64,000 bases of DNA from Cryptosporangium aurantiacum (GTDB lineage: Bacteria > Actinomycetota > Actinomycetes > Mycobacteriales > Cryptosporangiaceae), in the NCBI RefSeq assembly GCF_900143005.1, contig NZ_FRCS01000012.1, forward strand, positions 124,001 through 188,000. The letters are read 5' to 3'. Below the pieces are notes generated by a model that was not told where the DNA came from, did not search any database, and saw only the letters and a program-made list of their open reading frames with translations. The first letter of the stretch is position 1, and each line of letters starts with the position of its first letter. Shown piece by piece: positions 4,255 through 58,698 of the stretch. The translations under genes and the position numbers were made by a program.

Positions 4255-4632
4255 TCAGTCCCAGTCGAGGCCGCCGCGACGCCAGACGTACGCGTAGGCA
4301 ATGAACACAGTGCCGATGAACAGCACCATCTCCACCAGCCCGAACAGGCCGAGCGCCTCGTTGGCGACCGCCCACGGGTAGAGGAAGATGATCTCGATGT
4401 CGAAGACGATGAACAGCATCGCGGTCAAATAGAACTTGACCGGGAATCGGCCGCCACCGGTTGCCTGCGGTGACGGCTCGATGCCGCATTCGTAGGCGTC
4501 CAGCTTGGCCTTGTTGTAGCGCTTGGGCCCCACGAAGGCCGCCGCACCGACGCTGAACACCGCAAAAGCAGCAGCCAGCACGAAGAGGCCGACGATCGGC
4601 GCATAGAGCGCGAGTGAACCACCGGTGTCCAT
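4255..4632 (-). CDS. nuoA: NADH-quinone oxidoreductase subunit A
   Basis: A small membrane subunit of complex I, 125 residues, with three predicted transmembrane helices (residues about 10-33, 65-86 and 95-116). The conserved loop YECGIEPSPQATGG with its characteristic Cys and the FPVKFYLTAMLFIVFDIE segment are both present. The ATG at 4632 has a clear GGGAAGGGAA ribosome site. It is the first gene of the nuo operon; a 156-bp gap separates it from the menJ stop on the same strand. Confidence 0.97.
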   Translation of the reverse strand: MDTGGSLALYAPIVGLFVLAAAFAVFSVGAAAFVGPKRYNKAKLDAYECGIEPSPQATGGGRFPVKFYLTAMLFIVFDIEIIFLYPWAVANEALGLFGLVEMVLFIGTVFIAYAYVWRRGGLDWD

Positions 4633-4689
4633 CGGTTCCCTTCCCTGACGTCGATGTGCAGCGAGGAGGTGCCGTAGAGCTATTTGGTC

Positions 4690-4709
4690 CTGCGTCTATC
4701 AGGACGCAG
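4690..4709. terminator. Hairpin between menJ and nuoA
   Basis: CTGCGTC at 4690-4696 pairs with GACGCAG at 4703-4709, with a TATCAG loop. A short T run follows on the + strand. It lies between the menJ stop and the nuoA start. On the minus strand the run is on the wrong side for a classical menJ terminator, so its role is uncertain. Confidence 0.35.
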
Positions 4710-4788
4710 TCTTTTATCGGGGGTTTCTTTCGTTATCGACGGTTATGGTGTGACTCGTTATTCGGGGGTACTCAATCACACTGCAGGC

Positions 4789-6168: not shown

Positions 6169-6244
6169 GGCTGCCTCTCGACTGTGGTGCTGACCGTGTT
6201 GCTGCTAGGGGTCTCAGGGGCCATCGGGCGGGGCTTGCGTGCGC

Positions 6245-6262
6245 TTGTGAAAATCTTCACGA
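6245..6262. promoter_or_regulatory. Candidate Rex operator upstream of menJ
   Basis: The sequence TTGTGAAAATCTTCACGA closely matches the known actinobacterial Rex operator (TGTGAAC-N3-TTCACA type), with both half-sites TGTGAA and TTCAC intact. Rex represses respiratory genes until NADH rises. It lies 77 bp upstream of menJ, which is followed by nuoA-E, and a rex gene is present at the right edge of this window. The match is read by eye; binding is inferred. Confidence 0.55.
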
Positions 6263-6306
6263 ACTCAGCACGGGCAGTCTATGCCGCGCATCACATGGCT
6301 GGGTAC

Positions 6307-6325
6307 TAAGGCTCGCCTAACCCGA
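6307..6325. promoter_or_regulatory. Possible IdeR/DtxR-type iron box
   Basis: TAAGGCTCGCCTAACCCGA matches about 13 of 19 positions of the IdeR/DtxR consensus as recalled (TTAGGTTAGGCTAACCTAA), with the central inverted AGG/CCT halves kept. It lies between menJ and the lipoprotein gene. Matches of this quality can arise by chance. Confidence 0.3.
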
Positions 6326-6488
6326 ACCGGCGAGCGCCCGACGCCACGGCGACCACCCGCCGACAGCCTCGCGAGAAGACCTGACTTGAGACGTTTTGTC
6401 CACCGCACAAAAACGTCGATGCCGTTGTGTACGGGGTCACAAAAAATCGACGCAAGGAGTAGCGTGCCCGCAGAACGAAATAGCACAT

Positions 6489-6506
6489 ATCAGCACTTAC
6501 GCTGAT
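6489..6506. promoter_or_regulatory. Inverted repeat upstream of SOD-like lipoprotein
   Basis: Perfect arms ATCAGC and GCTGAT are separated by six bases and lie 43 bp upstream of the lipoprotein start. The size and position suit a dimeric regulator, but no regulator is assigned. Confidence 0.3.
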
Positions 6507-6549
6507 TGACTCGCACCGCAGCGACCCCTGCGCTCCCAAGGAGACCGTG

Positions 6550-7158
6550 ATGCGCCGATCCGCAGCACTCGTCCTCGTAGCCACCTCGCTGCTCGCTGCC
6601 GGGTGCGGCGGGGCGTCCCGGGAGGACGGCGGTTCGCAGGAGGAATCGGCGTCCGCGGCAGTCGAAGCAGCGCAGCCGATGGTGGCGGAGGGTACGTTCG
6701 GCAGCTACTCACCGACCAGCGTCGCGGTGACGTACGACCCGTCGCTGGTCCCGCCCGGCGCCACCGCCCGCCTGACGATCGCCGAGATCGCCGACGCGAC
6801 GACCGTGACGCTCGACGTCGGGGGGATGAAGCCCGACCGCACCTACGGGGCGCACCTGCACACGAAGCCATGCGGAGCCACCGGCACCGCAGCCGGGCCG
6901 CACTACCAGCACCGCCCCGACCCGGCCGCGTCCGCCTCGCCCCCGTCGGTGAACCCGACGTACGCGAACCCGCAGAACGAGGTGTGGCTCGACTTCACGA
7001 CCGACTCGCAGGGCACCGGGATCAGCAAGAGCACGCAGCCGTGGCGGTTCACCACGAAGCCTCAGTCGCTGATCATCCACGCCCAGAAGACCCAAACCGC
7101 CCCAGGCAAAGCCGGTATCGCCGGCCCCCGCCTGGCCTGCCTGACGGTCAAAGGGTGA
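6550..7158 (+). CDS. Superoxide dismutase family lipoprotein, probably copper-only
   Basis: A 202-residue exported protein of the Cu/Zn superoxide dismutase fold. A lipobox LLAAGC ends at Cys about residue 19, so it is probably anchored to the outer face of the membrane. Copper ligands seem to be kept: the AHLH pair, the His in AGPHYQH, and the His in SLIIHAQ near the C-terminus. The disulfide pair (KPCG and LACL) is also present. The segment that normally carries the last zinc-binding His reads NEVWLDF, without His, so the zinc site looks degenerate. The start is placed at the ATG at 6550, six bases after an AAGGAG ribosome site; a GTG lies one codon upstream. A perfect hairpin terminator begins at its stop. 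Confidence 0.78.
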   Translation: MRRSAALVLVATSLLAAGCGGASREDGGSQEESASAAVEAAQPMVAEGTFGSYSPTSVAVTYDPSLVPPGATARLTIAEIADATTVTLDVGGMKPDRTYGAHLHTKPCGATGTAAGPHYQHRPDPAASASPPSVNPTYANPQNEVWLDFTTDSQGTGISKSTQPWRFTTKPQSLIIHAQKTQTAPGKAGIAGPRLACLTVKG

Positions 7159-7176
7159 AAGGCGCGCTGCGCCTTT
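7158..7176 (+). terminator. Terminator after SOD-like lipoprotein gene
   Basis: AAAGGCGC and GCGCCTTT form a perfect 8-bp stem with a three-base loop, beginning at the stop codon. Confidence 0.7.
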
Positions 7177-7296
7177 GCTCTGACGTGGAGCCCGCTGAGA
7201 GCGTCGGGGACAGTCGAGCGGGCCGACGCCGTGACATTAGGGGGCCGTCATAAGGAGGCCCGCTCGCCTGTCATCCGTCGTTCTCAGCGGGCCGCC

Positions 7297-7983
7297 CTAC
7301 GCGCGGAAGGCGTGGTGGAGGGTGACGATTCCGCCCGTAAGGTTGCGCCAGCGGACGGAGCGCCAGCCGCTGGCGCCGATCGTTCCGGCGAGGTCGGCCT
7401 GCGTCGGCCACTCGCGGATCGACTCGGCCAGGTAGACGTAGGCGTCCGGCGCGCTGCTCACCGCGCGGGCCACCCGGGGTAGCGCGCGCATCAGGTACTC
7501 GGTGTAGACGGTCCGGAACGGCGCCCACGTGGGGTGGCTGAACTCCAGCACGACGAGCCGCCCACCCGGCTTCGTCACCCGCGCCATCTCGGCGAGCCCT
7601 GCGGCGGTGTCCGCGACGTTGCGCAGCCCGAACGAGATCGTCACCGCGTCGAACGTGGCGTCCGGGAACGGCAGGTGCATGGCGTCGCCTGCGACCAGCG
7701 GCACTCCGCGGTCGAGGCCCTCGCGCAGCATGCCGAGCGAGAAGTCGCACGCGATCACCTCGGCGCCGGAGTGCGCCAGCTCCGCGGTGGAGACCGCGGT
7801 ACCGGCCGCGAGGTCCAAGCACCGCTCACCCGGCCGCAGGTCCAGGACGTCGGCGGTGAGCGTCCGCCAGCGCCGGTCCTGGCCGAACGAGATCACCGTG
7901 TTCGTGAGGTCGTACCGGCGTGCGACCTGGTCGAACATCGCCGCCACGTCGCGTGGTCGCTTGTCCAGTGATGCCCGCGTCAT
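7297..7983 (-). CDS. ubiE: Demethylmenaquinone methyltransferase
   Basis: A 228-residue SAM-dependent methyltransferase of the MenG/UbiE family, which adds the ring methyl in the last step of menaquinone synthesis. The family start ([24 protein letters not shown]) is clear, the SAM motif [15 protein letters not shown] lies near residue 55, and the UbiE signature SFGLRNVAD near residue 120. The start is the ATG at 7983. Its neighbours menJ, the prenyl diphosphate synthase and the mqn genes agree with a menaquinone role. Confidence 0.94.
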
Positions 7984-8079
7984 GACGTCAGCCTAAGTCA
8001 GGTCCGGACGCGACCCCGCGCCGCGCCCGGCGTCGGCGACTTTGTCATTCCCACCAGTAAATGGCGGAGTTTCGAGGAA

Positions 8080-8126
8080 CCAGTAGCCCCGTTGTTTAAC
8101 GCGGGAGTAACCTACTGGCGCGTTAA
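8080..8126. promoter_or_regulatory. Two interleaved perfect inverted repeats in the SCP2 leader
   Basis: CCAGTAG (8080-8086) is complementary to CTACTGG (8112-8118), and TTAACGCG (8096-8103) to CGCGTTAA (8119-8126). The pairs interleave (a-b-a'-b'). In RNA they would form either alternative hairpins or a pseudoknot; in DNA they could be two overlapping operators. The region ends 22 bp before the SCP2 start codon and also lies in front of the divergent ubiE gene. Confidence 0.5.
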
Positions 8127-10465: not shown

Positions 10466-11555
10466 AGGCGCTGCGGTCTACGGCGGCGACGGCCAGGTCT
10501 CGGAGGGCGGCGCGGCCCTCGGGGGTGAACGGCGCGCTCGCCAGCACGGCCAGCGCGTGGTCGCAGCGCTCGGTGATCATCCGCTCCACGCTCTCCCGGG
10601 CCCCGGTCTCGACGATGAGCGCGCGCAACGCGGCGACCCCCTCGTCGTCCAGATCGGGGTTACCGAGGCGCTCCGCGAGGAGCGCCCTCCCGCCGTTCGA
10701 CGCCCGGGAGCGCGCCAGCGCGACCAGCACCGTCTGCTTGCCTTCCCGCAGGTCCTCGCCGGACGGCTTACCGGTGACCGCGCTGTCTCCGAACACGCCG
10801 AGCAGGTCGTCGCGCAGCTGGAACGCCTCGCCGATCGGGAGCGCGAACGCGGTGTAGGCGTCGACGACCGTCGCAGGCGCATCGGCGACCGCGGCGCCCA
10901 GGTGCAGCGGTGCCTCCACCGTGTACTTGCCGCTCTTGTACCGGGCGATCCGCAGTGCGCGCTCCAGCGGCACTCCCCCGCGGGTCGGAGCCGCGATGTC
11001 GAGGTACTGGCCGGCCATCAGCTCCAGACGCATCGTCGCGAACACGTCCCGGGCCCGCGACGCCGCGAGCGACGGCAGCCCCGCGGTGGCGAGCATCTGC
11101 TCGGAGAGCACCAGCAGCAGGTCACCCAGCAGGATCGCGGCGGCCTGACCGAAGCGCTCCGGGTCGCCGTGCAGACCGGCCGCCCGATGTGCCGCCTCCA
11201 GCGCGCGGTGCGCCGACGGGCGTCCGCGGCGTAGGTCGGAGCCGTCCATCACGTCGTCGTGGATCAGCGCGAACGCATGCAACAGCTCCAGCGACGCGGC
11301 GGCGCGGATCAGCGTCTCGTCGTCCGGCGCACCGGCCGCCCGCGCACCCCAGTACGCGAACAGCGGGCGGAGACGCTTGCCCCCGGCGAGCACCGCGGCC
11401 TGCAGCGGGCCATCGAGGTCGGACAGCTCCTCGCCGACTCGCCCCAGCACCGCCACGTAGTCGGCCAGGAAGTCCTCCAGCGCGAGACCGACGCGGGCCC
11501 GGACGTCTGCGTTGGTCGGGCTGACTCTCGCCGCTTCCACCGTCCGCGTGCTCAT
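10464..11555 (-). CDS. Polyprenyl diphosphate synthase
   Basis: A 363-residue trans-prenyltransferase that condenses isopentenyl diphosphate with an allylic diphosphate. The first Asp-rich motif is DDVMD (residues 100-104, in LIHDDVMDGSDLRRG). The second is DDLLGVFGD (249-257). A GGKRLRP motif lies at about residue 58. The family cannot be split by chain length from sequence alone, so it may make geranylgeranyl diphosphate or a longer menaquinone tail. Position next to menJ and ubiE, as with grcC1 in mycobacteria, favours the menaquinone tail; the MerR gene upstream also leaves a carotenoid role open. Confidence 0.88.
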   Translation of the reverse strand: MSTRTVEAARVSPTNADVRARVGLALEDFLADYVAVLGRVGEELSDLDGPLQAAVLAGGKRLRPLFAYWGARAAGAPDDETLIRAAASLELLHAFALIHDDVMDGSDLRRGRPSAHRALEAAHRAAGLHGDPERFGQAAAILLGDLLLVLSEQMLATAGLPSLAASRARDVFATMRLELMAGQYLDIAAPTRGGVPLERALRIARYKSGKYTVEAPLHLGAAVADAPATVVDAYTAFALPIGEAFQLRDDLLGVFGDSAVTGKPSGEDLREGKQTVLVALARSRASNGGRALLAERLGNPDLDDEGVAALRALIVETGARESVERMITERCDHALAVLASAPFTPEGRAALRDLAVAAVDRSA

Positions 11556-11600
11556 CTCGACCTCGTCCCGTTCGGCGGTGCATCGGTTGTGAGTCGATTC

Positions 11601-12647
11601 CTACCGTGAGACGCGCCGCCCCGCATCTCGAGACGCGGCCGGCCCACCCAGCGCGGCGAGCACACCCTCGACGGCTTCCACCAACGACGTCGGTAGCGCG
11701 ACGCCGGCGGGCAACCGTCGCCGGACCGGACCGAGCCAGCCGGGGCCGGCCGCGATCATCCGTACGGGACGCCCGATCCCGGCCAAGCGGGTGAACACCG
11801 TCGGGTCAGCGGTCTCCGGCACCTGTGACCAGAGCACGACCACCGACGGGCCGGTCCGCCGCACGGCCTCGACCATCGCCTCGGCAGGAACCCGGGCACC
11901 GAGGATCCGTGTTCCCCGCCGCACCTCGCGCAGCGCGGCCGCCAGCGCCTCCAGCGGCAGCGTGTGCTGCTCCTCCTCCACCGCGGCGAGCAGCGTCCGG
12001 GGCGGGGCGAGCGCGGGCACCGGCTCGTCGGACGTGCGGGCCCGCCGCGGACCCGCCGGACCCGGCACGACCATGCGCAGCTCGGTGGAGATGTGCCAGG
12101 ACAGCAAATGCTCGACCTCGACGACGCTGTGCCCGGCCTGCCAGCGCTGCCCGAGCGCCGAGAGCACCGGGACCAGGACCTCGCTCCAGGTCAGCACCGT
12201 GCCGTACGTCCGCAGGCAGGTGCGGATCTCCTCGGCGATCGCGTCCGAGTCCATGCTGCCCGCGGCCCTGGCCAGCCCGCGTGCGGCCGCCTGCGCCAGC
12301 CCCACCGGCATCACCCGCCGGTTCGGCACGCGGGCGCCGGGGCGCGGCGCGGGTTCGGTCAGTTCGCCCGGGTTGGCGGCCAGCGCGGTGCGCGCGGCAT
12401 CCGCTGGTGAGACCCCCTGGAACGTGAGGCGGCGCATCATCTCCAGCCGCCGGACGTCCTCTGCGGAGTACCGCCGGTGCCGTCCTGCCTCGTGCTCACT
12501 CGGGCCGAGGCCGTACCGCTGGTCCCAGGTCCGCAGGGTGGTCACCGCTACGCCGAGCCGCCTGGCCACCGCCCCGGCGGTCAGGCGTGGACCGGCCCAG
12601 GACGGACGTACCGCCTCGGACGCCCCACTGCGCTCGTCGCTCGCCAC
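11601..12647 (-). CDS. MerR-family regulator with cobalamin-binding-like C-terminal region
   Basis: A 348-residue regulator. Residues about 20-90 are a MerR winged helix (AGAVARRLGVAVTTLRTWDQRYGL, GRHRRYSAEDVRRLEMM). The rest resembles the two-part B12-binding module of CarH/LitR-type light-responsive regulators: a helical bundle with LGQRWQAGHSVVEVEHLLSWHI, then a Rossmann-like part. The base-binding DxHxxG motif is not intact; the corresponding stretch reads EEEQHTLPLEAL, keeping a His but not the Gly. Cobalamin binding is therefore doubtful. It lies 45 bp upstream of the polyprenyl synthase gene in the same direction, probably one operon. Confidence 0.75.
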   Translation of the reverse strand: MASDERSGASEAVRPSWAGPRLTAGAVARRLGVAVTTLRTWDQRYGLGPSEHEAGRHRRYSAEDVRRLEMMRRLTFQGVSPADAARTALAANPGELTEPAPRPGARVPNRRVMPVGLAQAAARGLARAAGSMDSDAIAEEIRTCLRTYGTVLTWSEVLVPVLSALGQRWQAGHSVVEVEHLLSWHISTELRMVVPGPAGPRRARTSDEPVPALAPPRTLLAAVEEEQHTLPLEALAAALREVRRGTRILGARVPAEAMVEAVRRTGPSVVVLWSQVPETADPTVFTRLAGIGRPVRMIAAGPGWLGPVRRRLPAGVALPTSLVEAVEGVLAALGGPAASRDAGRRVSR

Positions 12648-14375: not shown

Positions 14376-16321
14376 TATCGGGCGGTGACGCTTACCTGGT
14401 GCCAGCCCTCGGATCCGTTCGGAGCCGGGGGGCGCTCCGTTCCGGACTGGATGGCGCCGGTGGCGTCGGTGGCGCGGACCTCCAGGGTGTGGCGTCCGCC
14501 GCCGGCCTCGGTGGCATCCCAGTCCCAGCGCCACTGACGCCAGGTGTCCACGGAGTCGGCGTCCGCCAGCGTCGCTTGCTGCCACTGCCCCCCGTCGACC
14601 CGAACCTCGACGCGGCTGATGCCCCGGCGCTGCGCCCAGGCGACGCCCGCGACCGTGACCGTGCCGGAGACCCGGTCGGACTGCCGCGGGGTGTCGATCC
14701 GGGACGACGTCTTGATCGGGGCTTGCTGGGACCATCCGCGCGGCACCCAGTACGCGTCGAAGTCGTCGAACCGGGAGAGTTCCAGATCGACGAGCCACTT
14801 CGTGGCCGAGACGTAGCCGTAGAGGCCCGGGACGACCATCCGCACCGGGAAGCCGTGCGCGATCGGGAGCGGCACACCGTTCATGCCGACCGCGAGCAGC
14901 GCGTCCCGGCCGTCGCGGCACGCCGCCGTGGGTGTGCCGCAGGTCCAGCCGTCGGCCGAACGGCCGACGAGTTGGTCCGCGTCCGGGTGCGGGTCCGCTC
15001 GGTCCAGCACGTCAGCCAGTCGGACGCCGAGCCAGCGGGCGTTTCCGAGAAGGTCGCCGCCGACCTCGTTGGAGACGCAGGCCAACGTGATGTCGCGCTC
15101 GACCAGCGGCAGGTCCAGCAGATCCTGATAGGTGAGCGTGAGCTCGCGGCGGACGCGTCCGTGGATGCGCAGCCGGTAGGAGCGCGGATCGACCTGCGGC
15201 AGCACGAACGCGGTGTCGACCCGGTAGAACGTGTCGTTGGCGGTGGTCAGCGGGGTGATGCCGGGGACGTCGAGGCTCGCGCCTGCCGGTACCGGTGGCG
15301 CCGGGGACGCGGGGGCGGGCAGGCGGATCGCGGCGCGCTGGTCACTCACGCCGCGCCAGCGGGCGAGGAGGCGGCCGACGCCGCCCGCGGCCACCGCAGC
15401 CGTCGCGGCGCCCCCGGCGATCCAGAAAAACGTCCGCCGAGACGCCGCACCCCCACCCCCGACGAGCCAAGGAGCGGGAGAAGCGGAGCCGGCCGTACCC
15501 CCGGCCCCCACCGCCCGGCTCTCTGAGCCGGCGGACGAAGCGGAGCCGACCGTACCCCCGGCCCCCACAGCCCGGCTCTCTGAGCCGGCGGACGAAGCGG
15601 AGCCGGCCGTACCCCCGGCCCCCACAGCCCGGCTCTCTGAGCCGGCGGACGAAGCGGAGCCGACCGTACCCCCGGCCCCCACAGCCCGGCTCTCTGAGCC
15701 GGCGGACGAAGCGGAGCCGACCGTACCCCCGGCCCCCACAGCCCGGCTCTCTGAGCCGGCGGACGAAGCGGAGCCGGCCGTACCCCCGACATCGGCCGGC
15801 TCCGCGGTTCGATGGGAGTCCGCTGCTGCGACGCGCTCAGCCGCCTCGGCGTCCAGCGCCGCCCCCGCGTCCCGCGCGCGTCCGACGAGCAGCGACAGCA
15901 CACCCATCGCCACACCGGCGCCGACCAGCGTCGGCACGACCGCGAAGCTCGTCGAGTCCGGACGCGACACGCAGGCCGCAGCCCCGATAGCCGCAAAAGC
16001 CGCAAAAACTCCCAAACCGAAGCCTATATGACGCGCCGCCAGCGCGCCCGTCACCGCGGCCACCCCGGCGAGCACCACCAGGATGATCAACGTCAGCACC
16101 GGCTTGTCCCAGCTGCCGAACGTCTGGACGCCGAACTGCTCGACCGACCGCGGGACCCGGTCCACGATCTCCCCCGCGACCGCGGTCAGCGGCGAGGACG
16201 ACGGCCCGACGAACGCCGCGGCCACTTCGGCGACGCCGAGCGCGATCGCCGCCGCCACGATTCCGGCCAGCGCAGCGAGTGGCCGCGTCGCACGCGACCG
16301 CAGGATGATCACAGCTGTCAC
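14375..16321 (-). CDS. Membrane-anchored molybdopterin oxidoreductase, sulfite oxidase family
   Basis: About 648 residues. The N-terminal 150 residues hold four predicted transmembrane helices. A Gly/Ala/Ser linker of about 110 residues follows, built from 19-residue repeats. A fifth helix (TFFWIAGGAATAAVAAGG) precedes the extracytoplasmic enzyme domain. That domain carries the molybdenum-ligating cysteine in the family phrase TLACVSNEVGGDLLGNARW, and the C-terminal dimerisation domain (GVAWAQRRGISRVEVRVDGG). The substrate could be sulfite or another oxo acceptor. The start is uncertain: GTG at 16321 or 16312, or TTG at 16339. It lies a few tens of bases after mqnA in the same direction. Confidence 0.85.
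   Translation of the reverse strand: MTAVIILRSRATRPLAALAGIVAAAIALGVAEVAAAFVGPSSSPLTAVAGEIVDRVPRSVEQFGVQTFGSWDKPVLTLIILVVLAGVAAVTGALAARHIGFGLGVFAAFAAIGAAACVSRPDSTSFAVVPTLVGAGVAMGVLSLLVGRARDAGAALDAEAAERVAAADSHRTAEPADVGGTAGSASSAGSESRAVGAGGTVGSASSAGSESRAVGAGGTVGSASSAGSESRAVGAGGTAGSASSAGSESRAVGAGGTVGSASSAGSESRAVGAGGTAGSASPAPWLVGGGGAASRRTFFWIAGGAATAAVAAGGVGRLLARWRGVSDQRAAIRLPAPASPAPPVPAGASLDVPGITPLTTANDTFYRVDTAFVLPQVDPRSYRLRIHGRVRRELTLTYQDLLDLPLVERDITLACVSNEVGGDLLGNARWLGVRLADVLDRADPHPDADQLVGRSADGWTCGTPTAACRDGRDALLAVGMNGVPLPIAHGFPVRMVVPGLYGYVSATKWLVDLELSRFDDFDAYWVPRGWSQQAPIKTSSRIDTPRQSDRVSGTVTVAGVAWAQRRGISRVEVRVDGGQWQQATLADADSVDTWRQWRWDWDATEAGGGRHTLEVRATDATGAIQSGTERPPAPNGSEGWHQVSVTAR
15482..15788 (-). 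repeat. 57-bp coding tandem repeat (5 or more copies)
   Basis: A 57-bp unit repeats with a strict period; the block CCCGGCTCTCTGAGCCGG recurs near 15515, 15572, 15629, 15686 and 15743. It encodes the 19-residue unit SASSAGSESRAVGAGGTVG in the linker of the sulfite-oxidase-like protein. Units differ by only one or two bases (Val/Ala codon), showing recent expansion or homogenisation. Confidence 0.9.
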
Positions 16322-50202: not shown

Positions 50203-51210
50203 GTGCGCAGCAAAACGGATAAAGACGACGAAGATGGGCACTCTGGGGAGCCCTGGCGGCGGGCCGCGGTCGCCTGGACCCAGCACGCCGAAACCTGGGC
50301 CGCGCAGCACGCCGGTCGAGCCGCCGCGCCGCCTTCGCCTCCCTCGGGACCATCGCCGCCGCCGAACGATCCTGGGCCCGCCCGCCGCTCTCGAGCCCGC
50401 CACTACTGGGCACCGGTCGCCGGGGCGACAGCGTTCGTCCTGTGCCTCGCGAGCGCCGGGTGGGTGGTGTGGGGCTGGAGCCGCCCGGAGGCCGAATCGC
50501 CCCTCGCCGACCCGCCCCCGCCGAACTCCGTACCGGCAGCCCCGACCGCCGCGCCTCCGCTCCTCACCGCCACCACCAGCGCGCTTCCCTCCGAGGGTGC
50601 CGCCAGCGCCCCGGTGAACGCCGCCCGTCCCGAGGAGACCGCCGACCGCCCTGCCGACGCGCTCGCGTCCTGGGCCCGCGCGCTGCGGCTGCTCGACATC
50701 CCCCCGGTCGCGCTCCAGGCCTACGGCTACGCCGAGGCGGTACTCGCGACGGCCAAACCCCGCTGCCACCTCTCCTGGACGCTGCTGGCCGGCATCGGCG
50801 CGGTCGAGTCGAACCACGGACGCTACGGCGGCGCGAAGCTACGGCCGGACGGCACCAGCAGCAGCCGGATCATCGGCGTCCCGCTGGCCGGCGGCGGCGG
50901 CGTCGAACTCATCCGCGACACCGACCGCGGGACCCTCGACGGCGATCGCACCTACGACCGCGCGGTCGGGCCGATGCAGTTCCTCCCGGCGACGTGGAAG
51001 GCCTGGTCGGTGGATGCCGACGGCAACCGCCGCGCCGACCCCTACGACGTCGACGACGCCGCACTGGCCGCCGGTTACTACCTGTGCGCCCGCGACCAGG
51101 ACCTCGCGACCGGCGTCGGCTGGGCATCCGCGGTCTTCACGTACAACCGCGTTCCGGCATACGTCGAGCAGGTCTACCAATTCGCCGACGCCTACGGCCG
51201 CGCGGCCTGA
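50203..51210 (+). CDS. Membrane-anchored lytic transglycosylase (SLT/MltB type)
   Basis: About 335 residues. A cytosolic N-terminus of some 65 residues precedes one transmembrane helix (PVAGATAFVLCLASAGWVVWGW). A Pro/Ala-rich linker leads to the catalytic domain: LLAGIGAVESNHGRYGG carries the catalytic Glu, and AVGPMQFLPATWKAW, ADPYDVDDAALAAGYYLC and VFTYNRVPAYVEQVYQFAD are typical of the family. It cleaves glycan strands of peptidoglycan outside the membrane. The GTG at 50203 is the most likely start; the ribosome site is weak (GGGA). Its stop overlaps the convergent TPR gene. Confidence 0.85.
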   Translation: MRSKTDKDDEDGHSGEPWRRAAVAWTQHAETWAAQHAGRAAAPPSPPSGPSPPPNDPGPARRSRARHYWAPVAGATAFVLCLASAGWVVWGWSRPEAESPLADPPPPNSVPAAPTAAPPLLTATTSALPSEGAASAPVNAARPEETADRPADALASWARALRLLDIPPVALQAYGYAEAVLATAKPRCHLSWTLLAGIGAVESNHGRYGGAKLRPDGTSSSRIIGVPLAGGGGVELIRDTDRGTLDGDRTYDRAVGPMQFLPATWKAWSVDADGNRRADPYDVDDAALAAGYYLCARDQDLATGVGWASAVFTYNRVPAYVEQVYQFADAYGRAA

Positions 51211-52049
51211 GCCCGTTCGCGTCGCAGGTCCGCCAGGTCCGCGGTGGCGCTGCGCAACAGCGGGTGGTCGTCCTCGACAGCGCCGGTGAGCACCGCGACC
51301 GTCTCGGCGAGGAGCGGCTCCGCCCGGTCGTGCTCACCGAGCCGCCAGTGCGCCATCGCCAGGTTGTTGAGCGTGACCGCGAGTTCCGGGTGGGTGGGGG
51401 CGAGCGCAGCCCGCTTGATCGCGAGCGCCCGCCGCCACAGCTCGGCGGCCGCCGCCGGGTCGTCGTCGACGCGGAGCACGGCGAGGTTACCCAGCACGAT
51501 CGCGACCTCGAGGTGCTCCGGTCCGTAGTGACGCTCGTACACGCCGAGCGCCCGGCCGAGCAGCGTCCGGGCTTCGTCGGTCGCGCCGAGCTGCTGCAGA
51601 ACGGCGGCGAGCGCGACCTCGTCGGCGGCCACGTCCGGGTGGTCAGGCCCGCAGGCGCGCCGACGGATCTCGACCGCGCGACGCGCAGCCGGCTCGGCGT
51701 CCCGGTAGCGGCCCCGGGCGTGGTCGAGGCCGCCGAGGTTGTGATAGATCGCGGCAGCGTCGGCATGGTTCTCGCCGACCTCGGCCACGATGATCGCCAG
51801 CGCGCGGCGGTACTGCGTCCGTGCCTCGTCGAAGCGGCCGGTGTACTTGCCGAGGACGCCGAGGCTGTTGCAGACCTCGGCGACCGCGAAAGACTCCGGT
51901 CCGCACTCCTGCTCGGCGCGGCTCAGCAGGGCTCGCAGCGCCTGCTCGGCCTCGGCGTACCGCCCGGCCGCGCGGAGACGCTCGGCGTCGGCGCAAGCGG
52001 CCCGGACGGCTGCTGCGGCGTCGACCGCGCCCGCGGTGGCCTCGCTCAT
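51192..52049 (-). CDS. Tetratricopeptide repeat protein
   Basis: A 285-residue soluble protein made of about six TPR units of the 42-residue kinesin-light-chain type (SFAVAEVCNSLGVLGKYTGR, HADAAAIYHNLGGLDHARGR, HLEVAIVLGNLAVLRVDDDP, HPELAVTLNNLAMAHWRLGE). There is no enzyme domain or transmembrane segment. The ATG at 52049 follows AGGGGG and overlaps the MFS gene stop (ATGA). It is the last gene of a set with a SARP regulator, a repeat peptide and an MFS transporter. A peptide-binding or adaptor role would fit, but that is inferred. Confidence 0.85.
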   Translation of the reverse strand: MSEATAGAVDAAAAVRAACADAERLRAAGRYAEAEQALRALLSRAEQECGPESFAVAEVCNSLGVLGKYTGRFDEARTQYRRALAIIVAEVGENHADAAAIYHNLGGLDHARGRYRDAEPAARRAVEIRRRACGPDHPDVAADEVALAAVLQQLGATDEARTLLGRALGVYERHYGPEHLEVAIVLGNLAVLRVDDDPAAAAELWRRALAIKRAALAPTHPELAVTLNNLAMAHWRLGEHDRAEPLLAETVAVLTGAVEDDHPLLRSATADLADLRRERAQAARP

Positions 52050-53326
52050 TGCGTCCCCCTGTGGTTTTGAACGGCCGGAAGGTTGACCGAGGCCGGAAGC
52101 AGCCGGCCGAGCCGAAGGCTCAGCAGCACCGCACCGAGAAGCACGACGACCGCGACCGTGAGCGGAGCCGCCGGATAACCCGCGGACAGGAACAGCGCGG
52201 CGAGCGCGGGCCCGGCCGTGAACCCGATCGTGTACGTGAGGTTGAACGCCGCGTTGTACCGCCCGCGCAGGTCGTCGGTCGCGAGGTCGTTGACGAGCGC
52301 CGCCACCACCGGCGAGAACGCTGTCGCGCCCAGGCCGAAGAGCCCCATCGCGACGACGAACGGCCACACGCTGTCGCTCACCGCGCCGCCGACGAGGGCG
52401 ACCGCCCAGCCGAGCGCCGTCGTGAATGCCGCGGCTGCCATCGTGCGACTGCGCGGGATCCGGGCGGACCAGCCGTTGACCGGGAGCTGCGCCACCACGA
52501 CGACGAGTGTGCTCACCGCGAACGCCAGACCGAGCCCCGCGGCGTCCACGCCGGCTCCCTCGGTCGCGTAGCCGGTGAATCCCGCGCTGTGCTGTCCGTA
52601 GCCGGCGGCGACCACCAGCACGATCAAGGCGAGGACGGCGCGCGTCGGACGGTCGCCGACGACCTGGCGGTACCCGCCCGGACTCCGGCCGACAGGTTCG
52701 TTCGTCCGCGGGCGCACCCGCACGGTGAGCAGCGCGAAGAGCAGGAACGTCACGGCCTCGACGAGGTAGATCGCCGTGAAGCCCCCAGGTGACGCGACGA
52801 CGAGCAGAGCGCCGATCAGGCCACCCAGCGTCTGCCCGAGGTTGTTCAGGCCGTACCGCAGCGCGAACGCACGGCCGCGCAGCGGCACCGGTACGACCAG
52901 CGCGAGCAGCGCGCCCCGCGCCGGAGCGGCGAGCGCTATCCCGAGCCCGTACGTTCCTGCGGCCAGGAACCCCTGCCAGGTGGAGCGCACCGCCGGGGTC
53001 AGTGCGGCGCCGACCGCGACGACCAGCAGTCCGGCCACCGCGACGCGGCGGGCGCCCACCACATCGCAGAGCCATCCGCCCACCGGGTTGCCGACGAACC
53101 CGGCGAGCCCGATCGACGCGACGATCAGCCCGGCCGCACCCAGCCCGATCCCGCGCTGTTCGTGCAGGTACACGAGCAGGAACGGCAGCGTGAGGCCCAT
53201 TCCGCCGCAGGAGACGGCTTCTCCCGCCAAGACGAGCCACGCGGAACGGGGCAGCCGGCGTGTGCTCGATCGCCCCGTTCCCTGCTGCGCGTCCGGTGCG
53301 GCCGGGCGGCCTACGTCGATACCCAT
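52046..53326 (-). CDS. MFS transporter
   Basis: A 426-residue transporter with 12 predicted helices. The loop GGWLCDVVGARR between helices 2 and 3 is the MFS signature; a second half repeat starts near residue 230. It resembles drug-efflux-type MFS proteins. It starts 28 bp after the stop of the repeat-peptide gene and overlaps the TPR gene. Its own ribosome site is weak, which suggests coupling to the gene before it. The substrate is unknown; export of the repeat peptide or a derived product is one possibility. Confidence 0.87.
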   Translation of the reverse strand: MGIDVGRPAAPDAQQGTGRSSTRRLPRSAWLVLAGEAVSCGGMGLTLPFLLVYLHEQRGIGLGAAGLIVASIGLAGFVGNPVGGWLCDVVGARRVAVAGLLVVAVGAALTPAVRSTWQGFLAAGTYGLGIALAAPARGALLALVVPVPLRGRAFALRYGLNNLGQTLGGLIGALLVVASPGGFTAIYLVEAVTFLLFALLTVRVRPRTNEPVGRSPGGYRQVVGDRPTRAVLALIVLVVAAGYGQHSAGFTGYATEGAGVDAAGLGLAFAVSTLVVVVAQLPVNGWSARIPRSRTMAAAAFTTALGWAVALVGGAVSDSVWPFVVAMGLFGLGATAFSPVVAALVNDLATDDLRGRYNAAFNLTYTIGFTAGPALAALFLSAGYPAAPLTVAVVVLLGAVLLSLRLGRLLPASVNLPAVQNHRGTQ

Positions 53327-53354
53327 CCCGGCCCCCGGCCGCGCAGCCGCGTCG

Positions 53355-53498
53355 TCAGCCGCGCGAGACGATGGTCTCGCTGTGGTTGGTGCTCAGCCCA
53401 CGACCGACCACCGGCTCGCTGTGGTTGGTGCTCAGGCCGCGGCCCACGACCGTCTCGCTGTGGTTCGTCGCCAGGCCACGGGTGGCAATGTTGGACAT
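53355..53498 (-). CDS. 47-residue peptide of three 13-residue tandem repeats
   Basis: A short gene missed by length cut-offs. The ATG at 53498 begins MSNIAT and is followed by three tandem units: RGLATNHSETVVG, RGLSTNHSEPVVG and RGLSTNHSETIVS, ending RG-stop. The DNA repeat has a 39-bp period. An AGAAGGGA ribosome site lies about seven bases upstream of the ATG. The gene sits between a SARP regulator (125 bp) and an MFS transporter (28 bp), all on the minus strand. No Cys is present and no maturation enzyme lies next to it. It may be a multi-core precursor peptide, a signalling peptide or a small structural repeat; the sequence does not decide. Confidence 0.7.
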   Translation of the reverse strand: MSNIATRGLATNHSETVVGRGLSTNHSEPVVGRGLSTNHSETIVSRG

Positions 53499-53622
53499 CG
53501 GGCGTCCCTTCTCCACGGGGCGGCCCGCGATCACGGGCCTGGCCGGATCATCGGCACCGTGGCTTGAGGTGAGCCTGAGGTCCGCTGGAGCCGTGCCGCT
53601 CGCGTTGCCGCGGAAGGCCTGG

Positions 53623-56448
53623 TCAGACCGCTTGGAGAAGCAGGTCCCGCACCTGGGTGCGGGTCAGTTCGGTCCCGGCGGCCCGGGCGGCGGCGGCGAC
53701 CTCGGGTGTGCACCCATCGGTCACCAGACGCTCGATCCGGGGCGCGTCGATCGGGTCCATCCGCGCCGGGTCGAACCCGAGGCGCGCCCCGATCGCCGTC
53801 ACCGCACCCAACAGCATCGCGCCGTCCTCGGCGCGCCCGGACGCCGCCAGCGCGCCGGCCGCGGTGTGGACCATCACCAGCCATGACGTCCAGTCACCGG
53901 CTATCTCCTGCGCGACGACCTGCTCGGTGATCAGGCGGAGCGCGCGCGTCGACCGGCCGAGGTCCAGCGCTGCCTTCACGGCGGCCCACGCCGCGGACCC
54001 GGCCGCCCAATCGTGTCCGCACTCCTCCGCCAGGCGTTGCGCCCGGGTCAGCCGATCCAGCGCCGTCGCCGGATCGCCGCCCAGCCGGTCGACGTGCCCG
54101 AGTGCGCTGAGGGCCTCGGCCGCCACCCACTGCGGCGCCGAGCGTTCGGCCCAGGCGACGGCCCGGCGCGCCACCGCGGCCATCTCGGCCGGATTCTCCC
54201 CGGCCAGCACACCGAAATGGGCCCGGTAGCAGGTCGCGCGGATCAGCGTCAGGCGATCGTCCACGGCGCGCGCGGCGACGGCAGCGGCGTCCAGCCCGCC
54301 GAGCCCTGCTCGGAGGTCGCCGGCCAGGTAGTGCAGTCCGGCGAGGAAGAGCAGCGCCCGGGGAAGCGCTTCTGGCGCCCGGTCGGGGAACCGGAGCGCC
54401 TGCTGGAGGCTGCCGGTGCCCTCCTCGATCGCGCCGGTTCGGTACCAGTAGAAGCCCAGTGACGCGACGATCCGGAGCGCGCGGCCCGGGTCGTCGTCGG
54501 TGCTCGCGGACGCCAGCGCAGCGCGGCAGTTGGCCCGCTCGACGCTCAGCCGCGCGATCGAGTCGGCCGCGTCGAACGACACCATCCGCCGCTCCGCGGT
54601 GGCGGTGAGGTCCTCGACCCAGGCGCGGTGACGTGCGCGGACGCTCGCCGCCGCCGCTCCGGAGAGTTGCGCGGACGCGAACGCCCTGACGGTGTCGAGC
54701 AGTCCGTACCGGTCGCCGGCCGGTCCCGCCTCCTCGTCGCGTACTCGCACCACGCACGACTTGGCGACCAGCGCGGCCAGATCGACGGTCGCCGCGACGG
54801 CGGAGCGCTCGGGCCCGGCGACGGCGGCCACCGCGCGCGTGTCGAAGCCGCCCTCGAAGACGCTCAGCGCGGCGAACAGGCTCCGCTCGGACGCGCTCAG
54901 CATTGAGTAGCTCCAGTCGAGCGTCGACCAGAGCGACTCGTGCCGGTGCTCACCGCCGCGGTTGCCGTCTCGCAACAACGTGAACCGGTCGTCGAGGCGC
55001 TGTTCGATCTCCGGGAGCGGGAGCGCCGCCGCCCGCGCGGCGGCCAACTCGATCGCCAACGGCAGGCCGTCCAAGCGTCGGCAGATGCGCGTGACCACCG
55101 AGCGGTCTTCGGGGCGGACGTTCCAGCCGTGCGTGCCGGCACCGGCCCGATCGAGGAACAGCTCGACGGCGTCGTCGTCGGCCCGGAGCGGCCGCACCTC
55201 CAGCAGGCCCTCTCCCGGTACCCGGAGCGGTTCCCGGCTGGTGACCAGTACCCGGAGGCCCGCGCAGCGGCGGAGCAGGGCCGCAACCAGTTCGGCGACG
55301 GCCTCCCCGAGATGCTCACACCCGTCCAGCACCAGCAGGAAGTGCCGCTGCCGCAGCACGTCGGTCAGCTGTTCGGTGGTGTTCGCCCCGAACAGGCCCA
55401 GTATCCGGCCGATCGCCGGGGCCAGCAGCGATCCGGACGTCAGCCGCCCCACGTCGACCACCCAGGGGCCGTCGGGATCGTCCCGCGTACGAGCGACGTC
55501 GAGCGCCAGCCGTGTTTTGCCGACGCCGCCCGGGCCGGTCACCGTGGTCAGCCGGTACCGGGCGAGCATCGTCCGCAACCAGTCGGCCTCGGTCTGCCGT
55601 CCGATAGTTCGATCGAGGCTCAGCGGCACGTTGTGCGAGGCGGTTCCGTTCGGGCCCGCCGTGATGTCCGTCGGGAACAACGCCTCGTCGTGCGCGAGGA
55701 TCCGCGCTTCGAGCTCGCGTAGGCGCGGGCCCGGATCGACGCCCAGTTCCCCGGCGAGCCGACGCCGCGCCTCCCGTAGCGACGCCAACGCGTCCGCCTG
55801 TCGGCCGTCTCGGTAGCGGGCGAGTGCCAGCAGCTCCCAGCCGCGTTCGCGCAGCGGGTGGTCGCGGCAGTGCTGGGCCAGCTCCCCCGCCACCGACGCG
55901 TGCTGCCCGAGCACGATCGCCGCGGCGAACCGGTCTTCGAGCAGCGTCACGTGCAACTCGTGCAGGCGGGCCACCTCGGCCGCGATCAGATCGACGTGGT
56001 CGGGCGCGTCCTGGAACGGCCGTCCGCGCCAGAGCGCCAGCGCTTCGGCCGATCCGGACGCCGCCGAGCCCGCCTCGCCGGCCTGTAGCTGACGGTTCGC
56101 GCGGGTCGCGAGGCGCGTGAACTCCTCCGCGTCGAGCGCACCGACCGGTAATCGGAGCGCGTAACCGGAGCCCTCCCGCACCAGGATCGAGCCGCGCTCG
56201 CCCGGCGCCCGTCCGGGTTCCAGCGTCCGGCGTAACACCGCCACGTAGCTCTGCAGCGTGTTCAGCGCGCTGCGCGGACGCTTCGCCGGCCAGAGCGCGT
56301 CCAGCGCCTGGTCGGTCGAGACGACAAAACCCTGCGCCGCCGCGAGCGTCACCAGCAGCGCGCGTGGTTTCGCCCCCGGCACGGTCACCGCGGTGCCGTT
56401 TCGCCCGATCCGTAGCGGTCCGAGCACGTCGATCTGCAGCCCGCTCAT
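53623..56448 (-). CDS. SARP/AfsR-type transcriptional regulator with NB-ARC and TPR-like domains
   Basis: A 941-residue regulator. Residues 1-100 are an OmpR-like winged helix (LQIDVLGPLRIGRNG, RALLVTLAAAQG, VSTDQALDALWP). Residues about 105-250 are the bacterial transcriptional activation domain (VGALDAEEFTRLATRA, LLEDRFAAAIVLGQH). The NB-ARC ATPase follows, with P-loop GPGGVGKT at 305-312 and FLLVLDGCEHLGEAV; its later part is GLPLAIELAAARAAALP. The C-terminal 350 residues are TPR-like helices. The start is the ATG at 56448. Such proteins usually switch on a neighbouring gene set, here most likely the peptide, MFS and TPR genes. Confidence 0.9.
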   Translation of the reverse strand: MSGLQIDVLGPLRIGRNGTAVTVPGAKPRALLVTLAAAQGFVVSTDQALDALWPAKRPRSALNTLQSYVAVLRRTLEPGRAPGERGSILVREGSGYALRLPVGALDAEEFTRLATRANRQLQAGEAGSAASGSAEALALWRGRPFQDAPDHVDLIAAEVARLHELHVTLLEDRFAAAIVLGQHASVAGELAQHCRDHPLRERGWELLALARYRDGRQADALASLREARRRLAGELGVDPGPRLRELEARILAHDEALFPTDITAGPNGTASHNVPLSLDRTIGRQTEADWLRTMLARYRLTTVTGPGGVGKTRLALDVARTRDDPDGPWVVDVGRLTSGSLLAPAIGRILGLFGANTTEQLTDVLRQRHFLLVLDGCEHLGEAVAELVAALLRRCAGLRVLVTSREPLRVPGEGLLEVRPLRADDDAVELFLDRAGAGTHGWNVRPEDRSVVTRICRRLDGLPLAIELAAARAAALPLPEIEQRLDDRFTLLRDGNRGGEHRHESLWSTLDWSYSMLSASERSLFAALSVFEGGFDTRAVAAVAGPERSAVAATVDLAALVAKSCVVRVRDEEAGPAGDRYGLLDTVRAFASAQLSGAAAASVRARHRAWVEDLTATAERRMVSFDAADSIARLSVERANCRAALASASTDDDPGRALRIVASLGFYWYRTGAIEEGTGSLQQALRFPDRAPEALPRALLFLAGLHYLAGDLRAGLGGLDAAAVAARAVDDRLTLIRATCYRAHFGVLAGENPAEMAAVARRAVAWAERSAPQWVAAEALSALGHVDRLGGDPATALDRLTRAQRLAEECGHDWAAGSAAWAAVKAALDLGRSTRALRLITEQVVAQEIAGDWTSWLVMVHTAAGALAASGRAEDGAMLLGAVTAIGARLGFDPARMDPIDAPRIERLVTDGCTPEVAAAARAAGTELTRTQVRDLLLQAV

Positions 56449-56688
56449 GTCCCTGCCCCCCGGCGTCGGGTCGCAAGTCACACGTCGCTGTGTGTACCCC
56501 CACTGGCGATTGGACTACAACCGGCATCACACCGTCCGGATGTGTCCGGAACCGGTCAGGCAGGTAGATCAGACCCCGTCGCACCCCCTGTCGCGGTGGT
56601 GAAACTTGACCCGAGCGGCAACGATGGACCACAGGGCCCGGGGCCGGCGGCGAACGGGCCCCGGGCTTACCGGGGAAGGAGCCGCAGG

Positions 56689-58668
56689 TTGAATTCTTTT
56701 CGACCGACCCGTGCGAACGGCGCTCAGCCTACGGAAATACGTGAGGTTGAAAAGAGTTCATCGAGTGCGCCGACAGTGGGCCAGCTCGGGCAGTACCGGC
56801 TGGTCGGAGTGCTCGGGACCGGCGGGATGGGGACGGTGTACCTGGGCCGGTCGCCGGGCGGACGGCTCGTGGCGGTCAAGGCCGTGCACGGGCACCTCGC
56901 GCTCAACCCGGACTTCCGCATCCGCTTCCGCCGCGAGGTCGCGCTGGCCCAGCGGGTCGGCGGGCCGTTCACCGCCGCGATGCTCGACGCCGACCCCGAC
57001 GGGGACCCGCCGTGGCTCGCGACCGAGTACATCCGGGGCCAGTCGCTGGCCCAGGTCCTGAACGAACACGGCGCGCTGCCCGAGGACACGGTCCGGGCGC
57101 TGGCCGCGGGCCTGGCGGAAGCGCTGCAGGTCATCCACGCTGCCGGGGTCGTCCACCGCGACTTGAAGCCGTCGAACGTGCTGCTGTCGGAGAACGGCCC
57201 GCGGGTGATCGACTTCGGGATCGCGAAGGCCGTCGAGGGCATCGATCTCACCGGCGACGGGCCGCTGCTCGGTACGCCCGGCTACATGTCGCCCGAGCAC
57301 CTCGCCGGTGCGCCACTGGCGCCGAGCAGCGATGTGTTCTCGCTGGGTGCCGTGCTGGCGCACGCCGCGACCGGCGTCGCGCCGTTCGGGGCGGGGCAGT
57401 CGTTCGCGGTCGCCAACCGGGTGGCCACCGCGCCGCCGGACCTGTCCGGGCTGCCGCCGGGGCTCGCCGAGCTGATCGGCCGCTGCCTGGCCAAGGAGCC
57501 GACCGAGCGTCCGTCGCTGGACTGGATCGTGCGGCAGGTCGGCTCGTTCGCCGACCAGGACAGCTGGCTCCCGTCCGAGGTGGGGAACGCGATCCGGCAC
57601 CGGCCGGCGGCGACGCGGCCGTTCACGAACGCCGATGCCCCGCCGCCCGGTGCACGGCCCGGTGCGCGGCCCGCCGCACCGGCCGCGTCCGACGAGGAGC
57701 CACCGGACTTGGTGGCGTACCTGGCCGACCGCTTCTCGCGCCGCGCGGGTGGTCCCCCGATCGAGATCGGCGCCGCCCGTACTCCGGCCCCGGCACGCGC
57801 CACCGCAGCCGCCGGGGCCGCCGCAGCGGCGCCCGAGGCGCCGCCCGCGCAGGTCGGTCTGGCCAAGCTGAAGGAGGGCGCGGCGCGCCTCCAGGGGGCA
57901 GCCGCCCGCCTGCGCGCGGCCACCGCCCGTCCCCCGGAGGCCGCTCCCCCGCCGGGAGTCGTGCGGCCGGGAGCAGGGCGGCCGGGAGCGGGGCCGTCGG
58001 GAGCGGGGCCGCCGGGCGCCGTGCCGCCGCCCGGGGGCGTGCCGCCGCAGCAGCGCGCGCCCTGGAACCCGAACGGCGTGCCGCAGGCCCGCACTGCGGC
58101 GCCGCCGCTACGCGCTCCCCGACGCGTGCCGTGGCAGCGCCTCCAGTGCCCGCCGGTGGGCACCGCCACCGGGCGCAAGGTCTGGAGCCGCTGGCTGCTG
58201 GTGCTGATCCTGCTGGGTCTGCTCGACGCGATCGCACAGGCGCCGTTCGTCCGGCAGCTGTTCGTCGACGGCGGGCTGACCGAGCCGTCCTGGCTGTCCC
58301 GCGCGTTCGAGACGAGCACGGCTATCGACCGGCAGACGTCCTGGCTCCCCGACCCGGCCACGAGCTGGATCACGGCCGACGGCACCGCCGACCCCGGTAC
58401 GGTGGCGAGTCGACTGGCGGCGGTACCTCTCACGTTGCTGATCTGCGTCGCGCTGATCCGCCGCGGGGGCACCACGAACTGGATGATGTGGGCCAAGACC
58501 GCGGCCGGGTGGATCGGGACGCTCATCGCGGCGTTCCTGATCCTGCGCTACCTGGCGACCGGCTTCGCATCCCTGCTCTGGGCCGTGGCGACGCTCCAGT
58601 GGGGGCTCTTGTTCGTCTTCCCCCCGCTGGCGTTCCTCACCATCCGCGCCGCCGGATCCCCGCGCTAG
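56689..58668 (+). CDS. Membrane-anchored serine/threonine protein kinase
   Basis: About 659 residues from a TTG at 56689, seven bases after AAGGAG. Kinase domain about residues 36-290: glycine loop LGTGGMGTVYLGR, Lys64 in VAVKAV, HRDLKPSN near 156-163, DFG near 175, and GTPGYMSPEHLAG. A Pro/Ala-rich linker of 170 residues follows, then four hydrophobic helices at the C-terminus (WLLVLILLGLLDAIAQAPF, LAAVPLTLLICVALI, AAGWIGTLIAAFLILRYL, WGLLFVFPPLAFLTI). The first 25 residues come from the 73-bp repeated element. A GTG at 56776 would give a shorter form without that element but has no ribosome site. The substrate is unknown. Confidence 0.87.
   Translation: MNSFRPTRANGAQPTEIREVEKSSSSAPTVGQLGQYRLVGVLGTGGMGTVYLGRSPGGRLVAVKAVHGHLALNPDFRIRFRREVALAQRVGGPFTAAMLDADPDGDPPWLATEYIRGQSLAQVLNEHGALPEDTVRALAAGLAEALQVIHAAGVVHRDLKPSNVLLSENGPRVIDFGIAKAVEGIDLTGDGPLLGTPGYMSPEHLAGAPLAPSSDVFSLGAVLAHAATGVAPFGAGQSFAVANRVATAPPDLSGLPPGLAELIGRCLAKEPTERPSLDWIVRQVGSFADQDSWLPSEVGNAIRHRPAATRPFTNADAPPPGARPGARPAAPAASDEEPPDLVAYLADRFSRRAGGPPIEIGAARTPAPARATAAAGAAAAAPEAPPAQVGLAKLKEGAARLQGAAARLRAATARPPEAAPPPGVVRPGAGRPGAGPSGAGPPGAVPPPGGVPPQQRAPWNPNGVPQARTAAPPLRAPRRVPWQRLQCPPVGTATGRKVWSRWLLVLILLGLLDAIAQAPFVRQLFVDGGLTEPSWLSRAFETSTAIDRQTSWLPDPATSWITADGTADPGTVASRLAAVPLTLLICVALIRRGGTTNWMMWAKTAAGWIGTLIAAFLILRYLATGFASLLWAVATLQWGLLFVFPPLAFLTIRAAGSPR
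56691..56763 (+). repeat. 73-bp element with conserved inverted ends, copy B (kinase gene start)
   Basis: It begins GAATTCTTTTCGACCG and ends GTTGAAAAGAGTTCATCG, the same ends as copy A at 13872-13944 with one mismatch, the same length (73 bp) and the same orientation. The 39-bp centre is unrelated to that of copy A. The kinase gene's probable TTG start begins two bases before it, so the element encodes the kinase N-terminus (NSFRP...VEKSSS). Confidence 0.7.
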
Positions 58669-58698
58669 GGTCCCCGCGCTAGGGTCCCCGCGCTAGGA
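58657..58698. repeat. 14-bp triplication at convergent stops
   Basis: TCCCCGCGCTAGGG occurs three times head to tail (58657-58670, 58671-58684, 58685-58698, the last with one change). The kinase TAG lies in the first unit and the hemB stop in the last. Confidence 0.8.

Follow-up and report, generated by a model that had tools for sequence, protein, structure and literature searches.

What is the role of a 47-codon gene that encodes three near-identical 13-residue units and lies between a large regulator gene and a transporter gene in Cryptosporangium aurantiacum? We addressed this question by computational analysis of a 64,000-nt stretch of contig NZ_FRCS01000012.1, here called the window, and of related loci elsewhere. 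Window coordinates are positions in the whole stretch, and L-numbers denote loci of other genomes or records. The window peptide is a real gene in a conserved family, linked to genes for a major facilitator superfamily (MFS) transporter and a tetratricopeptide repeat (TPR) protein. We propose that the three genes form a peptide-release-and-recognition cassette, in which the peptide would be exported and the TPR protein would be its cytoplasmic binder, most likely its receptor; taken as a whole chain, we rate this proposal just short of an even chance.

The repeat peptide and its neighbours in the window

53355–53498, minus strand: 47-aa repeat peptide gene in its own reading frame, one of the 21 peptides in the family table
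53442–53480, minus strand: unit 1, RGLATNHSETVVG (repeat and translation)
53403–53441, minus strand: unit 2, RGLSTNHSEPVVG (repeat and translation)
53364–53402, minus strand: unit 3, RGLSTNHSETIVS (repeat and translation)
53506–53514, minus strand: ribosome-binding site GGAGAAGGG, preceding the peptide ATG
52046–53326, minus strand: MFS transporter, 426 aa (PF07690 match, 2.1e-43), 28 nt past the peptide gene
51192–52049, minus strand: TPR protein of kinesin-light-chain (KLC) type, 285 aa (matches to TPR_12/TPR_10)
53623–56448, minus strand: upstream neighbour, a Streptomyces antibiotic regulatory protein (SARP)/BTAD–NB-ARC regulator (BTAD 1.4e-35; NB-ARC matches), outside the conserved cassette

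The frame running from 53498 to 53355 on the minus strand translates as MSNIATRGLATNHSETVVGRGLSTNHSEPVVGRGLSTNHSETIVSRG-stop, and its 47 codons hold three in-register 39-nt units. Together with GGAGAAGGG ahead of the ATG, this frame bears out the gene of three near-identical 13-residue units claimed in a preliminary description of the stretch. Domain matches and coordinates agree with the placement given there, with the SARP/NB-ARC regulator on one side, the MFS gene on the other and the TPR gene overlapping the latter (the TPR ATG and the MFS stop codon share 4 nt). Promoter and terminator scans of window 51000–56700 found none, and the window peptide had no match above the curated cutoff in PADLOC.

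A scattered peptide family and its gene partners

The peptide is rare among the relatives of its host. Sought in 60 genomes of the same genus, family and order at E 0.1, it was found in none (one genome of 61, its own), and a first whole-collection scan with it returned zero relatives. The cassette MFS was missing at E 1e-80 from 38 of 40 relatives (present in three of 41 with its own genome), and the two matches outside the genus (L080 and L081) lacked a related TPR gene and a core pair. The other genomes of the genus that were searched contained neither the peptide nor this MFS. Streptomyces plasmids gave two marginal tblastn matches (E 0.4 and 0.6), each lying ahead of MFS and TPR genes, and a class-wide search revealed four GLSTNHSQVVL-like units in one genome (E 6.6e-8), again followed by genes of these two types. 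Profiles of the single core then matched 4 of 394 genomes in the class, including the window's own (E 0.01); within the G359 family they matched 8 of 297 genomes (E 0.001), within the G155 genus 3 of 295 (E 0.005), and across the phylum 2 of 396, again including the window's own (E 0.001). Ten of the 14 weak class-wide matches (E 0.002–0.1) were read, five of them lying on the wrong strand. When 84,980 species genomes were searched with six aligned cassette MFS proteins, 22 loci were recovered. Three plasmid MFS matches (H10–H12, L021–L023) had no related TPR gene (tblastn, E 1e-3) and no core pair.

After removal of duplicates, 21 cassettes in 19 genomes or records remained: the window, plasmids L003 and L004, L036–L041, L043–L047, L053, L054, L078, L079, L093A, L093B and L094. 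The peptides of G487, G540 and G605 are identical to those of L038, L037 and L039; G532 and G550 were treated as duplicates of L040 and L046 solely from reading the opposite strand. At least six named families contribute cassettes (Streptosporangiaceae, Micromonosporaceae, Thermomonosporaceae, Frankiaceae, Streptomycetaceae and, through one metagenome-assembled genome (MAG), Solirubrobacteraceae). The preliminary description had suggested looking for the peptide between the same regulator and transporter in related actinomycetes; it does recur beside the MFS and TPR genes in other families, but it is absent from the searched congeners and the SARP is not constant. No match above the curated cutoffs of Pfam and NCBIfam was obtained for the 11 of 21 peptides checked, and we did not find the family described in open-licence literature on repeat or multicore precursors, actinomycete RRNPP systems, FxSxx or the core strings. 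It appears to be an undescribed family scattered among actinomycetes. Such genes are easily missed, since one plasmid match lies beneath an opposite-strand gene call and the other beneath no listed gene, in an admittedly incomplete gene table. Transposase genes lie near the L004 plasmid cassette (L004:9974–11066), which fits the scattered distribution.

The peptides are 24–141 aa long and carry one to seven cores each, with two to seven in 17 of the 21 and a single core in four, so that the number of units varies among relatives, a point the preliminary description had raised. The core follows the consensus (G/A)(L/I)xxNHx(E/Q)x(V/I/L)(V/L), about 11 residues. Selection of the 59 cores with the motif [NQ]Hx[EQ] makes H and E/Q invariant from the outset; within this set N occurs in 57 cores and E in 50, with G41/A9 at −4, L29/I8 at −3, N37/S15 at +2, V44/L14 at +5 and L27/V23 at +6. 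Degenerate first copies were missed by the motif (QNNQAVV in L004, LNQAVV in L093A, HHDETVL in L039 and HDETVI in L040), and the histidine is absent from two of these four. Spacing from core to core varies between 12 and 38 residues, which indicates that the conserved element is the core and not a fold of fixed period. A single cysteine occurs among all 21 peptides, and there is no conserved leader.

Several observations indicate that these frames are coding. The analyst picked each start codon, and GGAG lies within 22 nt before 20 of the 21 (AAGGGG in L044). Neighbouring cores within a peptide differ at 64, 42 and 95 sites on codon positions 1, 2 and 3, the codon changes being 58 synonymous and 75 replacement. 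Comparisons across loci give 129, 92 and 224, with 184 synonymous and 116 replacement changes, in 52 pairs picked for protein similarity, a choice that favours synonymous change. In six-frame translations of 36 loci longer than 8 kb (571,542 bases, some overlapping each other), no core pair at most 60 residues apart occurred outside the cassette peptides, apart from a single orphan family member in L093. That orphan, a two-core peptide at 11490–11909, accompanies two back-to-back cassettes in one Streptomyces genome (L093:4040–11912). Among the nine TPR-less loci, single core-like matches lie near the MFS gene in L049 (one match) and L056 (two, each in its own frame); three cassette loci (L036, L038 and L045) also contain such matches by chance, on unrelated frames. 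One match alone is therefore weak evidence, and the one-core peptides of L039, L041 and L043 depend on context too.

The association with both partners is tight. Thirteen of the 22 MFS homologues have a TPR neighbour, and all 13 also have the peptide (12 through the motif, L041 by reading); the other nine have neither a TPR homologue nor a repeated core. On the MFS tree the labels 'cassette' and 'other' change twice, against 9.3 times in shuffles (0 of 500 as low), although several deep forks are weak and L053 is a long branch. Protein distances correlate across 18 cassettes at r 0.83 for TPR and MFS, 0.48 for peptide and TPR and 0.50 for peptide and MFS (each p 0.0002). In a comparison of shared genes across 16 loci, limited to genes of at least 90 aa from a crude gene finder, the MFS was found in 14 and the TPR in 12, followed by SARP-like and GNAT-like clusters in four and methyltransferase and P450 clusters in three. 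The order peptide–MFS–TPR on one strand holds in 15 of the 21 cassettes, and in most loci the TPR gene overlaps or directly adjoins the MFS gene. Six cassettes depart from this order: MFS–peptide–TPR in L046, peptide–TPR–MFS in L053 and L079, a peptide divergent from an MFS–TPR fusion in L045, peptide–TPR without its own MFS but adjoining another cassette's MFS in L093B, and a signal-peptide-like peptide with a TPR gene and no MFS in L078. Across the 21 cassettes, the peptide is nearly always accompanied by an orthologous MFS and a KLC-type TPR protein. In the Asanoa ishikariensis cassette (L043:11196–11985) the TPR gene is broken between frames while the peptide and MFS are open, and the MFS gene of the Solirubrobacteraceae MAG (L053:2341–3244) is interrupted or misassembled.

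The partner proteins and two variant loci

The nearest solved relatives of the window MFS, by profile, are NorA and then LmrP, both exporters. The window TPR protein was modelled with a pLDDT of 96.3. A sequence-profile search ranked kinesin light chains highest among its solved relatives (168 bits), and in the fold search KLC1/KLC2 TPR domains lead by E-value (TM 0.44–0.69 on the query), several of them with bound cargo peptides. It superposes best on degron-bound APPBP2 (8jal_A, rank 31; TM 0.87 over 285 columns). Fold and peptide groove are common to the window TPR and these KLC and APPBP2 domains, which differ in being eukaryotic cargo or degron adaptors. The family matches of 12 TPR proteins (25 families listed) include a TPR-type family in every case.

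The Frankia locus L045 encodes MFS and TPR in a single 799-aa open reading frame (Pfam MFS_1 and TPR_12). Its model (pLDDT 82, pTM 0.59) contains 12 long membrane-type helices, a disordered linker at 455–525 and a TPR domain. The N-terminus of an MFS protein is on the cytoplasmic side, and in this model the TPR domain is predicted on the same side, that is, in the cytoplasm.

The L078 peptide reads MSTSDHHHDAHHTRR-IVAAAVLALALAGG-TSAVTATVAQAA, then a tail ending in SYNHNETVLARG, with a strong ribosome site and an adjoining TPR gene. Its 15-residue hydropathy maximum is 2.24, compared with at most 1.59 in the other 20 peptides. No cassette-type MFS was found within 16 kb, nor genome-wide at E 1e-60 among 134 candidates scored. 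In the simplest interpretation, L078 has swapped one export route for another, and the TPR protein is the peptide's partner in both.

A proposed release-and-recognition cassette and its alternatives

The peptide family and its coding nature, the gene association, the one fusion and the one signal-peptide-like variant are read directly in the sequence; export, cleavage, binding, re-import and any output are our inferences. In the proposed mechanism, the ribosome would make a short precursor with one to seven cores of about 11 residues, and the dedicated MFS would export this precursor or peptides cut from it. The cytoplasmic TPR protein would hold the core in its groove and would most likely be the receptor for the returning peptide, following RRNPP logic with the MFS replacing Sec/PptAB. 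That the MFS exports the peptide is probable, and that the TPR protein binds it is slightly more so. The exported signal or precursor system envisaged in the preliminary description is upheld in part, as a conserved multi-copy gene tied to MFS and TPR, with putative export and binding well motivated by L078 and L045, but the SARP is not a fixed part of it.

Several results weigh against this proposal. None of the families matched by the 12 TPR proteins is DNA-binding or enzymatic in the matched region, so that no output step is visible, and no RRNPP receptor occurs among the PDB matches listed (the best 60 of 80 by profile and 50 of 205 by fold, E ≤ 0.001). The L042 MFS groups with the cassette proteins (weak support, 77/74) yet lacks both partners. 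Once the MFS is accounted for, peptide and TPR show no significant co-variation (partial r 0.14, p 0.23), and the partial correlations did not separate TPR from MFS as the specificity partner. The signal-peptide-like variant is one case, recognized by hydropathy alone; the L045 fusion suits an export adaptor equally well; and P450 genes near four of 20 loci, adjoining the peptide in L045 and L078, leave room for modification.

The adaptor reading holds that the TPR protein passes a cytoplasmic precursor to the MFS and that the product is a secreted peptide such as an antibiotic, a metal binder or a surface peptide. The fusion, the overlapping or abutting MFS and TPR genes, the strong correlation of their distances and the computed relation to KLC-type TPRs, which are cargo adaptors, all speak for it. 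L078, however, retains a TPR gene next to a signal-peptide-like precursor although no such MFS was found there, and the TPR gene that belongs to L093B adjoins the MFS of a different cassette; we regard this reading as rather unlikely. Somewhat less likely still is a multi-core precursor of a ribosomally synthesized and post-translationally modified peptide (RiPP), its cores modified by a nearby or distant enzyme, cut out and exported. In its favour, 17 of the 21 peptides carry several cores joined by variable linkers, and P450 genes lie in the fetched flanks of four of 20 loci (L039, L045, L046 and L078). Three P450 genes surround the Frankia cassette (L045:7791–14998), one of which lies 88 nt beyond the peptide; the P450 gene lies about 7–8 kb away in L039 and L046, is divergent from the peptide in L078, and none was seen near the window peptide in the 22 kb read. 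These neighbours led us to raise the RiPP reading slightly within the unlikely range and to lower the release-and-recognition proposal from an even chance to just below it, with similarly small reductions for a novel signalling class and for the SARP as peptide receptor. Against a RiPP, 16 of the 20 loci have no P450 at E 1e-6 (four queries, with no P450 background rate for comparison), none of the nine MFS-only loci has one (mostly MAGs of other families), no gene cluster beyond MFS and TPR reaches more than four of the 16 compared loci, and the peptides share neither cysteines nor a leader. The L036 cassette adjoins an ATP-grasp gene and a C39 transporter gene, and this ATP-grasp appears to have two GG-leader precursors of its own. 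The peptides may be modified in some strains, and the absence of a recognizable RiPP class, as first described, agrees with the finding that no known RiPP enzyme is common to most loci.

The genes beside the L036 cassette of Microbispora siamensis (4340–8088) form a separate graspetide-like cluster, and we set them aside as modifying enzymes for the NHxE/Q peptides given the two other precursors there:

L036:4340–6571: C39 peptidase ABC transporter
L036:6572–6835 and 6885–7040 (frames): two small peptides with GG-type leaders
L036:7048–8088: MvdD-like ATP-grasp

A cis-acting leader peptide that controls MFS translation would account for the 15 cassettes, out of 21, whose peptide gene immediately precedes a co-oriented MFS gene. 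The variable gene orders argue strongly against it, as the peptide is divergent in L045, follows the MFS in L046, precedes the TPR in L053, L079 and L093B and occurs without an MFS in L078; we consider this explanation extremely improbable. Nearly as improbable is a SARP-controlled cluster with the SARP as the peptide receptor. The window SARP gene is indeed the co-oriented upstream neighbour, SARP domains also occur near L040 and L047, a fragment at the L036 contig edge resembles the remaining domains of the SARP, and STAND-type proteins, three with LuxR domains, are found near L046, L079, L093 and L094. But 17 of the 20 loci have no SARP domain in their fetched flanks (tblastn, three queries), and the three seen compare with about 1.0 expected in about 0.36 Mb by hand calculation from 350 domains in 13 genomes (about 120 Mb); the LuxR/STAND count stands without a baseline rate. 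The SARP as a fixed member of the system, part of the original layout argument, did not hold, and with a SARP-like cluster in four of the 16 compared loci we dropped it from the conserved unit. The large STAND-type proteins within 10 kb of cassettes are:

L046:12883–15747
L079:10739–13351
L093:13646–16342
L094:11414–14089

Elsewhere in the window, a 57-nt unit is repeated 5.4 times with 98% matches at 15480–15788, and the 14-nt unit TCCCCGCGCTAGGG 2.9 times with zero mismatches at 58657–58697.

Among known systems, multi-core RiPP precursors such as those of cyanobactins, microviridins and dikaritins likewise combine several near-identical cores with an exporter; they differ from the present loci, where no modifying enzyme or protease is common to most and no leader is conserved. 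The window TPR resembles residues 478–736 of FxSxx_TPR (NCBIfam NF040586; 7.9e-34) of the FxSxx-COOH system, but it scores 117.2 bits against a cutoff of 300 and none of the 21 peptides ends in FxSxx, so we ruled out membership (no search was aimed at the radical SAM gene). A further parallel is with the RRNPP peptide quorum-sensing systems of Firmicutes (Rap/Rgg/NprR/PlcR/PrgX), in which, according to one source, a small propeptide gene lies near that of a TPR protein of 250–500 aa, as here; the same source gives five criteria, including a propeptide of 10–100 aa, secretion by Sec (or PptAB), a TPR receptor, adjacency and receptor homology, and note intragenic duplications in propeptides (PMC10075063). 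Twenty of our 21 peptides fall within 10–100 aa (L003 has 141 aa), and 19 of 20 TPR proteins within 250–500 aa (L041 has 235; the boundaries of L045 and L094 were set by hand and the broken L043 was left out), with a TPR domain in 12 of 12. Peptide and TPR genes are direct neighbours in five of the 21 cassettes (L046, L053, L078, L079 and L093B), with the MFS between them in 15 and a divergent arrangement in L045. Only the L078 precursor looks exported in the RRNPP manner, being Sec-type by hydropathy (one of 21), and homology to an RRNPP receptor was not seen among the matches listed (best 60 of 80 and 50 of 205). The cassettes differ further in that the peptide nearly always has an MFS neighbour where RRNPP systems use Sec/PptAB, in a KLC-type TPR without an output domain and in their actinomycete hosts. 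By analogy, the cassette would work like an RRNPP system, but it is not one, and its TPR protein does not appear to be homologous to the RRNPP receptors.

According to the same source, Actinomycetota typically signal with small molecules made by enzymes, and oligopeptide signals are typical of Bacillota (PMC10075063). The release-and-recognition cassette may represent an undescribed form of actinomycete peptide signalling, with multi-copy NHxE/Q peptides exported by an MFS and received by a KLC-type TPR protein, scattered across families and Streptomyces plasmids; we hold this wider claim to be possible, with the balance somewhat against it. The peptides are short, genetically encoded and readily synthesized, so binding and response are directly testable. 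If the proposal is true, an MFS transporter would gain a defined ribosomal peptide substrate, and a peptide language would be added to the main antibiotic-producing group.

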